Below are positions 12,483-13,887 of a DNA stretch of 64,000 bases, in pieces. Origin of the DNA: Caballeronia turbans (GTDB lineage Bacteria > Pseudomonadota > Gammaproteobacteria > Burkholderiales > Burkholderiaceae). Numbering within the stretch: position 1 is the first letter of the stretch; each line of letters starts with the position of its first letter. The position numbers were made by a program, and so were the translations under genes. The stretch is taken from contig FCOD02000006.1 in assembly GCA_001544655.2 (NCBI GenBank), positions 186,001-250,000 on the forward strand, written 5' to 3'. The notes below the pieces were generated by a model. It ran no database searches. It was not told where the DNA came from and saw nothing but the letters and a program-made list of their open reading frames with translations.

Positions 12483-12573
12483 TTTGTATGCGGCATTTCC
12501 GCATCGGATGGGTGGGTATGCGGCGTGGCCGCGCCGTCCGATGCGGATTGTCCGCGTTTTCTTAGTTGCAGGG

Positions 12574-12602
12574 TTGTCAGCGCCGCACGTTTGAGGTTAT
12601 AA
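12574..12602 (+). promoter_or_regulatory. Sigma-70-type promoter of the aroG leader
   Basis: TTGTCA (12574-12579), a 17-bp spacer, and TTATAA (12597-12602). Transcription would start near 12609, giving about 33 nt before the leader-peptide ATG. It is one of the best promoter matches in the window and stands just upstream of the leader ORF and terminator. Confidence 0.75.
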
Positions 12603-12641
12603 GAGCAGTCACAACTTTTTGCGACACCCCTTCGACCCATC

Positions 12642-12707
12642 ATGTCCGCCAAGTTTTATTTTTATTTCTTTTGGCATCTCAAGCCGCTGGCGGATCGAGA
12701 GGGGTGA
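12642..12707 (+). CDS. Aromatic-rich leader peptide of aroG
   Basis: A 21-codon ORF, ATG to TGA. Residues 5-11 are FYFYFFW: four Phe, two Tyr and one Trp in a row, flanked by MSAK and HLKPLADREG. Such a run is what a ribosome would use to sense charged tRNA-Phe, tRNA-Tyr and tRNA-Trp, as in the E. coli pheA and trp leaders. It lies between a strong promoter and a strong intrinsic terminator, 107 bp before aroG, which makes the first dedicated enzyme of aromatic amino acid synthesis. No clear Shine-Dalgarno sequence precedes the ATG, which is a weakness. The peptide is expected to have no function of its own. Confidence 0.8.
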   Translation: MSAKFYFYFFWHLKPLADREG

Positions 12708-12772
12708 GTCGTACACAGGTTGAACAAACCGAAATTCCCGAAAAACCGCCAGCGAGTCTGGCGGTTTTTTTT
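12646..12772 (+). promoter_or_regulatory. Candidate transcription attenuator of aroG
   Basis: Four pairable segments are visible. Segment 1 is CCGCCA (12646-12651), inside the start of the leader ORF. Segment 2 is CGCTGGCGG (12685-12693). Segment 3 is CCGCCAGCG (12746-12754). Segment 4 is CTGGCGG (12758-12764). Pairings are 1:2 (6 bp), 2:3 (9 bp, antiterminator) and 3:4 (7 bp plus A/U, terminator). A ribosome stalled on the early aromatic codons (12654-12674) would cover segment 1 and free segment 2 to pair with 3; one reaching the stop at 12705 would mask part of segment 2 and let the terminator form. Confidence 0.75.
12741..12772 (+). terminator. Intrinsic terminator in the aroG leader
   Basis: CCGCCAG (12746-12752), loop CGAGT, CTGGCGG (12758-12764), flanked by five A before and eight T after. 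A textbook terminator, 41 bp before the aroG start. It is too far from tldD to be only the end of that gene, and a promoter lies between them. Confidence 0.9.
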
Positions 12773-12813
12773 CGTCTCATATTTTGATTAGAACGTTGCC
12801 GTTGGAGAACGAC

Positions 12814-13887
12814 ATGCCCCCGCACAATACCGATGATGTTCGCATCCGCGAGTTGAAAGAGCTGACCCCGCCCGCGCATCTGATCCGCGAATTTCCCTGC
12901 GCCGAGCCGGTTTCGGAACTCATCTACAACGCGCGGCAGTCGATGCATCGCATTCTTCATGGGATGGATGATCGCCTGATCGTCATCGTCGGGCCTTGCT
13001 CGATTCATGATCCGAAGGCTGCATTGGAGTACGCGGGGCGATTGATCGAGCAGCGTAAGCGGTTTGCTGGTGAACTTGAGATCGTGATGCGGGTGTATTT
13101 CGAAAAGCCGCGGACAACGGTCGGCTGGAAGGGGCTGATCAACGATCCGTACATGGATAACAGCTTCAAGATCAATGATGGGTTGCGGGCCGCGCGGGAG
13201 TTGCTCATGCATATCAATGAGCTTGGCTTGCCTGCGGGGACCGAGTATCTCGACATGATCAGTCCGCAGTACATCGCCGATCTGATTTCGTGGGGCGCGA
13301 TTGGGGCGCGGACCACGGAGTCTCAAGTACACCGCGAGCTTGCCTCCGGGTTGTCTTGCCCGGTGGGATTCAAGAACGGTACTGACGGTAACGTCAAGAT
13401 TGCTGTGGATGCGATCAAGGCGGCTTCGCAGCCGCATCATTTTCTCTCTGTGACCAAGGGCGGCCATTCGGCGATTGTTTCTACCGCTGGTAATGAGGAT
13501 TGCCACATCATTTTGCGCGGTGGCAAGACGCCTAATTTCGATGCGGCGAGTGTGGATGCTGCGTGTAGCGATATTGGGAAGGCTGGCTTGGCTGCGCGAT
13601 TAATGATTGACGCGAGCCATGCCAATAGCTCGAAGAAGCATGAGAATCAGATTCCGGTTTGTGAGGATATTGGCAAGCAACTGGCTGCTGGGGATGAGCG
13701 GATTGTCGGAGTGATGGTGGAGTCGCATCTGGTTGCGGGACGCCAGGATCTGAAGGAAGGATGCGAATTGACCTACGGGCAAAGCGTCACCGATGCCTGT
13801 ATCGGATGGGATGAGAGTGTGAAGGTGCTTGAGGGATTGGCGGAAGCGGTTAAGCAGCGGCGCGTAGTACGTGGCGGCGGAAACTGA
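12814..13887 (+). CDS. aroG: 3-deoxy-7-phosphoheptulonate synthase (DAHP synthase, class I)
   Basis: Condenses phosphoenolpyruvate and erythrose 4-phosphate to DAHP, the first step of the shikimate pathway. The 357-aa protein has the class I hallmarks GPCSIHDPKAALEYAGRL, FEKPRTTVGWKG, KNGTDGN and DASHANSSKKH. The start at 12814 is preferred over an in-frame TTG at 12784 because GGAGAA sits 5 nt before the ATG and the family begins here. Codon use is unlike the neighbours: from about 13400 on there are many GCT, GGT, GAT and ATT codons. Expression is probably set by the leader attenuator; allosteric control by Phe or Tyr is expected by family but cannot be read here. Confidence 0.95.
   Translation: MPPHNTDDVRIRELKELTPPAHLIREFPCAEPVSELIYNARQSMHRILHGMDDRLIVIVGPCSIHDPKAALEYAGRLIEQRKRFAGELEIVMRVYFEKPRTTVGWKGLINDPYMDNSFKINDGLRAARELLMHINELGLPAGTEYLDMISPQYIADLISWGAIGARTTESQVHRELASGLSCPVGFKNGTDGNVKIAVDAIKAASQPHHFLSVTKGGHSAIVSTAGNEDCHIILRGGKTPNFDAASVDAACSDIGKAGLAARLMIDASHANSSKKHENQIPVCEDIGKQLAAGDERIVGVMVESHLVAGRQDLKEGCELTYGQSVTDACIGWDESVKVLEGLAEAVKQRRVVRGGGN

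Follow-up and report, generated by a model that had tools for sequence, protein, structure and literature searches.

A putative phenylalanine- and tyrosine-reading attenuator upstream of aroG in Caballeronia turbans and other Burkholderiales

How is the entry enzyme of the shikimate pathway, 3-deoxy-7-phosphoheptulonate (DAHP) synthase, controlled in Burkholderiales? The question arises at the tldD-aroG gap of the window, by which we mean the whole 64,000-nucleotide stretch of Caballeronia turbans DNA analyzed here. In this gap a sequence-only reading had proposed a ribosome-mediated attenuator, and comparative evidence (its parts, their conservation, codon and RNA constraints, and model folding) supports that interpretation. 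In E. coli DAHP synthase is subject to feedback inhibition and its genes are repressed by TyrR and TrpR (accessible text of PMC5343134 and PMC11802643). In many Burkholderiales control of the same enzyme step appears to be tied to ribosome activity, through an RNA switch rather than DNA-binding repressors.

All features described below lie on the + strand of the window, and the promoter-like site, the 21-codon leader, segments 1 to 4 and the U8 terminator were all found before aroG at the coordinates first given for them. A pattern scan detected a terminator-like hairpin 3' of tldD (12540..12558), which would separate tldD from the leader transcript, and therefore the leader probably has a promoter of its own. 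The candidate is a sigma-70-like site read directly at 12574..12602, with a -35 box TTGTCA (12574-12579), a 17-nucleotide spacer and a -10 box TTATAA (12597-12602), the -10 box having the alternative reading TATAAG with an 18-nucleotide spacer. Relatives carry TATAAA boxes at this place, together with TTGCCA-like boxes in several. A simple promoter scan of the window called no promoter before the leader; the rules of the scan bar both -10 readings. The leader peptide open reading frame (12642..12707, assigned from sequence and conservation) begins with the ATG at 12642 and encodes MSAKFYFYFFWHLKPLADREG in 21 codons, followed by the TGA stop at 12705-12707. Its putative control codons 5-11 (12654..12674) read F Y F Y F F W. 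Segment 1 (12645..12651) is UCCGCCA, including the CCGCCA of 12646-12651, and can pair with UGGCGGA (12688-12694). Segment 2 (12685..12693; DNA CGCTGGCGG, RNA CGCUGGCGG) is the 5' arm of the candidate antiterminator, which has 9 bp with segment 3, the shared arm CCGCCAGCG (12746..12754). Segment 4 (12758..12764; CTGGCGG in DNA, CUGGCGG in RNA) is the 3' arm of an intrinsic terminator completed by the U8 tract (12765..12772). Thus the proposed alternation, in which segment 3 pairs either with segment 2 over 9 bp or with segment 4 as a terminator with eight U, can be read in the window, and the pattern scan also called the 3:4 terminator. A local hairpin surrounds segment 2 (12677..12700; RNAalifold consensus and pair conservation), with arms UCUC (12677-12680) with GAGA (12697-12700) and CCG (12684-12686) with CGG (12691-12693). 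The gene that follows, the DAHP synthase gene aroG (12814..13887, ATG at 12814), encodes a protein matching the NCBIfam AroG equivalog NF006723 (E 6e-180, 597.6 bits).

The window has the marks of an attenuator: a leader open reading frame with aromatic codons, an intrinsic terminator before the structural gene and an antiterminator that, judged by sequence and the folding model, would exclude the terminator. This layout is like that of pheL-type leaders, which have a Phe-rich leader peptide and a mutually exclusive antiterminator and intrinsic terminator. The fold of the window leader is better than those of 200/200 shuffles (z -4.68). Our preferred reading, which we consider very probable given the comparative and modeling data, is that aroG is under ribosome-mediated transcription attenuation that would read the charging of tRNA-Phe and tRNA-Tyr, with tRNA-Trp optional. 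RNA polymerase would start near 12609 and make the leader, and a ribosome would initiate the 21-codon frame without a Shine-Dalgarno sequence. Upon scarcity of Phe-tRNA or Tyr-tRNA the ribosome would stall on codons 5-11 and cover segment 1 and, at codons 9-11, also the 5' arm of the local hairpin. The freed segment 2 would then pair over 9 bp with segment 3, no terminator would form and aroG would be transcribed. When charged tRNA is plentiful, the ribosome would cross segment 2 to the stop codon, the 3:4 helix would form with the U8 tract and transcription would stop before aroG. We infer every step of this scheme, from the transcription start and the translation of the leader through stalling and termination to the response to amino acids.

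Conservation among close relatives was evaluated with 110 aroG loci (L001-L110), 30 of which came from the genome of the window and genomes of the same genus. The closest relatives bearing a name are Caballeronia. The 80 others included Caballeronia, Paraburkholderia, Burkholderia, Trinickia, Mycetohabitans, Pararobbsia, Robbsia, Ralstonia, Cupriavidus and Pandoraea loci plus one from Collimonas. These loci gave 102 distinct upstream regions, and all 102 have an ATG-initiated leader with an aromatic run, a hairpin followed by 7-9 T residues and a segment 2 that pairs over 6-9 bp with segment 3. A region that keeps the terminator while having lost the aromatic codons or segment 2, the pattern named at the outset as contrary to attenuation, was found in 0/102. 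The alignments contained 46 diverse regions (A1) or 44 of these (A2), the Collimonas (L108) and Robbsia (L110) sequences being left out of A2 because they were misaligned.

Codon-level variation was analyzed in the 75 leaders of close relatives that keep one codon register. At codons 6, 8, 9 and 10 TTT and TTC or TAT and TAC are swapped and the residue stays Phe or Tyr (at codon 10 F is exchanged for Y in two cases). One synonymous variant occurs at codon 7 and none at codon 5, which is TTT in 75/75. Codons 13, 16, 17 and 20 (CTC, CTG, GCG and GAG) show no changes in any of the 75 leaders and codon 15 shows one. As the aromatic codons vary synonymously and the segment 2 codons hardly vary, selection seems to act on tRNA identity in one part of the leader and on RNA in a separate part, which is the pattern that a tRNA sensor combined with an RNA structure would predict. 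In the frameshifted leaders L009/L032, L041 and L043 the peptide differs past the aromatic run and segment 2 (CGCTGGCGG) is intact. These data bear on peptide-dependent arrest, in which the nascent FYFYFFW...PLADREG would stall the ribosome on free aromatic amino acid, much as TnaC arrest responds to Trp. The peptide is highly conserved among close relatives as such arrest would demand, but its C-terminal residues are the ones frameshifted away with retention of the RNA, and the lack of synonymous freedom at codons 13, 16, 17 and 20 points to an RNA constraint. Moreover, peptides elsewhere in the order are very different (MSQRFYFFFYFWSYLSHRRAK, MYTRAAHWFFFGFFLPLAEGIDRRC and MQTQRAYFFYFWFSPPAAER) and have little in common but their aromatic density. 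Residues conserved independently of RNA pairing, as expected of a TnaC-like element, were not seen in the sequences, and we consider arrest very unlikely relative to attenuation by tRNA charging.

Which amino acids would be sensed? The proposal of a mixed Phe/Tyr/Trp sensor holds for Phe (present in 80/80 distinct peptides) and very nearly for Tyr (77/80), but fails for Trp as a conserved component (52/80). Codon 11 encodes Trp in 67 of the 75 in-register leaders and S, A or G in the others. As W is absent from 28/80 distinct peptides, Trp as an obligatory third input was ruled out; the peptides point to Phe and Tyr as the core signal with Trp as an optional third input. The leader would give a ready sensor of Phe/Tyr charging. 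In several Caballeronia leaders (L002, L004, L006/L033, L012/L034, L035, L036 and L037) there is one G fewer near the leader end, and the stop codon falls five codons later, 29 nt past segment 2. The leader of Candidatus Burkholderia humilis (L045) has a frameshift such that the open reading frame runs on through the terminator without a stop, and this leader is probably decaying.

Alignment of the gap had been proposed as a check for compensatory changes in segments 1-4, and such changes were seen in the 3:4 stem (at two pairs) but not in the 2:3 helix. In the 44-row alignment 100% of the 3:4 terminator pairs are kept, and there are seven compensated cells (a number reached by 0/500 shuffles) at two pairs (reached by 29/500). 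The 2:3 antiterminator is kept in 95.5% of cells, with G-U replacements, and has no compensatory changes in the same alignment because segment 2 varies too little. Of 46 sequences tested from close relatives, 45 had a 2:3 match that no more than 10 of 200 shuffles equaled, whereas outside the family it exceeded chance (by the same limit of 10/200) in only 18/32. Segment 1 (codons 2-4) is paired in 90-93% of cells in the 44 relatives, whereas the local hairpin around segment 2 is paired in 99-100%, and the RNAalifold consensus prefers this hairpin (UCUC:GAGA plus CCG:CGG). Being better kept than segment 1, the local hairpin behind the aromatic codons is a second candidate for the role assigned to segment 1. 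The best support for it is that CTC at codon 13 and GAG at codon 20 are invariant (75/75), and it is conserved with covariation unproven. When its arms were swapped among 31 distinct leaders from outside the family, the native score was 11.39 versus 11.14 for swapped arms (standard deviation 0.40) and 538/2000 swaps were as good; with one leader per family (14 leaders) 1900/5000 swaps equaled the native hairpin. Native arms were thus no better than swapped ones, and the swap gives the local hairpin no support beyond a general pyrimidine-purine match. Single-sequence fold z-scores for this hairpin are near zero (median -0.28, 18/78 below -1). In the window the 1:2 stem is extended 5' of the start codon, for example by CACCCC:GGGGUG.

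Stalling was modeled by folding only the RNA that lies more than 10 nt past the A-site codon, everything before it being masked. In the window before segment 4 is made, the predicted P(2:3) rises from 0 with no ribosome to 0.92-1.00 when one sits at codons 5-11. The suggestion that segment 1 can sequester segment 2 held when the 5' UTR was included (P(1:2)=0.92 without a ribosome) but not when the window RNA (L001) began at the ATG, in which case segment 2 was not closed and P(2:3) was 1.00, and therefore the off state of the window would lean on the 5' UTR. On the full transcript of the window the terminator prevails when the ribosome is stalled at codons 2-8. Only at codons 9, 10 and 11 does 2:3 compete with it (P(2:3) 0.69, 0.37 and 0.56), and at these positions the 5' arm of the local hairpin lies under the ribosome. 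With stalling at aromatic codons before segment 4 is made, 75 of 78 leaders had a mean P(2:3) above 0.5. When no ribosome was included, P(2:3) was below 0.5 in 48 of the 78 with a 34 nt 5' UTR and in 20 when folding began at the start codon. By the footprint rule of this analysis, only 31/78 leaders have a segment 2 that is reached by a ribosome standing at the stop codon. The model gives good support to the on step and less, and less uniform, support to the off step. Among the leaders listed the terminator often wins on the full transcript despite the stalled ribosome, so in many species the on state would have to be kinetic according to this model.

The leader ATG was said to lack an obvious Shine-Dalgarno sequence, and relatives bear this out. 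Scored as the longest match to TAAGGAGGTGA, the Shine-Dalgarno match is less than 3 nt in 82 of the 102 close-relative leaders and reaches 3-4 nt in the remaining 20. For comparison, aroG in the window has GGAGA (12804..12808, read directly) and the aroG starts have matches of at least 4 nt in 95/102. Over 136 leaders the match is less than 3 nt in 95, 3 nt in 37 and 4 nt in 4, the likeliest exception being L219, which has GGAG. Judged by this score, the missing leader Shine-Dalgarno is a lineage-wide property, and the leader offers a case in which to study how attenuation would work without one. In 37 leaders from outside the family of the window there are 21 places at which the end of a TAnnnT box is 6-9 nt upstream of the start codon, versus 14 places over 54 other distances tested in the same leaders. 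Owing to the position of these boxes, transcripts in several families are predicted to have their 5' end at the AUG or close to it, and many relatives look as if their leader mRNA were leaderless. Examples of such -10-like boxes are seen in L113, L121, L144, L168, L224 and L226. The arrangement resembles that of Sinorhizobium meliloti trpL, which has an aromatic leader peptide and a transcript that begins at the AUG (accessible text of PMC7298713), the differences being that trpL serves the Trp operon of an alpha-proteobacterium and that for the window leader a 5' UTR of about 30 nt is predicted. In 24 window-set sequences a TATAAA-like box lies mostly 34-67 nt before the ATG, with a few further up, and L103, L106 and L110 showed no such box. 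From these distances the window leader is expected to have a short 5' UTR, without a Shine-Dalgarno sequence.

Does the element occur apart from aroG? A covariance model of the leader (R1) matched 43 of 61 genomes at E ≤0.01: 34 at aroG in the genome of the window and the same genus, 5 at aroG in other families, 1 displaced and decayed copy and 3 weak matches away from aroG in other families. The weak matches in G049 and G051 are terminators after other genes and were rejected, and the G057 match is confined to the terminator end of the model. In the genome of the window the model matches over its full length once, at aroG. Three further matches are partial (E 0.3-8), and the best of them is the opposite strand of the aroG-leader terminator. 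The exact aromatic-run pattern occurs once in this genome, and with up to two mismatches there are 8 genome sites versus 16 in the reversed control. A second DAHP synthase gene (L111; G000:C54:264720-265763), the protein of which is 61% identical, has no aromatic leader upstream, and therefore the two isoenzymes are probably differently controlled. In one genome of the same genus (G035, 3.7 million bases) the leader is on a contig other than that of aroG. Its leader-like match (L281, contig C112, 39784-39912) is followed by other sequence where aroG would be; ACG stands in place of the ATG, the reading frame is disrupted and the terminator contains mismatches, and the G035 aroG has a new upstream region. 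This single case from a fragmented assembly is consistent with an element that acts in cis and decays after separation from its gene. The displaced copy matters for the alternative that the terminated leader is a small RNA or small-protein mRNA with remote targets, with or without attenuation. A short terminated RNA would indeed arise, conservation is strong and there is a precedent in rnTrpL/peTrpL of Sinorhizobium (accessible text of PMC7298713), but 39 of the 40 leader-like R1 matches in the 61 genomes adjoin aroG, the displaced copy has decayed and the peptides differ freely between families. We think a trans-acting product improbable, with only a slight chance of being the explanation, and favor cis attenuation of aroG. 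The window leader is not a member of the Rfam families tried; there were only sub-threshold matches, to Phe_leader RF01859 (20.3 bits versus a gathering score of 55) and to Leu_leader RF00512 (22.4 versus 50 bits; the leader lacks a Leu run), and both were rejected.

In the wider order 154 genomes had a match, and 116 of them contributed one upstream region each; these were mostly the better matches, and thus the fractions that follow are not a census. An open reading frame of 8-60 codons with at least five aromatic codons in nine was present in 40/116 aroG upstream regions versus 3/580 shuffles. The full module was found in 39/116 genomes from 14 families including that of the window (38 without L135, which repeats the sequence of L105). 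A script requiring at least four aromatic codons in nine plus a perfect hairpin called 34 leaders, and L120, L183, L220, L221 and L226 were added by eye because the terminator has a mismatch; calls used ATG, GTG or TTG starts, and leaders with other starts may be missed. Segment 2 falls in varied reading frames across the order. At one position of segments 2, 3 and 4, 13 of 32 leaders from outside the family have T/A/T and 5 have C/G/C. As 12 of the 32 mismatch at segment 2 and 2 are unscorable, this triple change gives only partial support. No leader was called in 77/116 genomes, and 18 sampled families have none. A terminator kept without the aromatic codons, absent from the close relatives, does occur once in these 77: L212 (G164, family f43) has a similar CCGCCA/TGGCGG terminator with T7 before aroG and no aromatic open reading frame, and the other three genomes sampled from this family carry the leader. 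That the element is an ordinary terminator (or a Rho- or translation-coupled element) preceded by a chance AT-rich open reading frame could draw on the terminator-like hairpins upstream in 13 of the 77 genomes lacking a called leader (of the same type in at least L212), but it is exceedingly improbable given an aromatic density beyond that of shuffles, the codon pattern and the presence of segment 2 in 102/102 close-relative regions.

The attenuation mechanism we favor is classical and for this gene has one unrelated precedent, the aroR-aroF attenuator of Corynebacterium glutamicum (Neshat et al. 2014, via the accessible text of PMC11802643 and PMC4046766), which likewise places a Phe-Tyr-Phe leader peptide and ribosome stalling before a DAHP synthase gene. 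That system is reported to respond to Phe, not Tyr, limitation (accessible text of PMC11802643). It belongs to an actinobacterium and has three named aromatic codons versus seven in the window; homology is not expected. Given this unrelated setting, the Burkholderiales leader is probably a second, independent instance. The pheA (pheL) and pheST leaders of E. coli, named in the accessible text of PMC11802643, share the Phe-rich leader and exclusive antiterminator and terminator but precede other genes in another taxon. A description of a Burkholderiales aroG leader was not found in the mainly open-access literature searched. The leader goes unnamed in the accessible text of attenuator and RNA-regulon surveys (PMC2965389, PMC3766115, PMC1173090, PMC8632094 and PMC5343134), and the main texts of two transcription-start papers (PMC4603805 and PMC7563307) lack the terms attenuat and heptulosonate. 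The annotation (leader peptide plus attenuator) should be transferable to genomes having such a gap before aroG. We also put forward a broader scheme, tentatively and with more doubt than belief, of order-wide Shine-Dalgarno-free and often leaderless-mRNA attenuators that would place the shikimate entry enzyme under joint Phe/Tyr-tRNA control. In this scheme a hairpin set against the control codons would leave only the last of them (9-11 in the window) fully effective, leaky initiation and codon position, besides codon number, would set the response, and the terminated leader RNA might also act in trans.

Outside the order 40 upstream regions were inspected, these being the best-matching of 82 genomes with a match, and within the class 2 of the 40 reach five aromatic codons in nine, one of them with a terminator. 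The latter (L241, from G246, another family of the class) has a possible aromatic leader ...ARFYRWYYFPKPPAEEG and a CCGCCAG/CTGGCGG terminator, and its leader start lies about 276 nt from the end of that upstream region.
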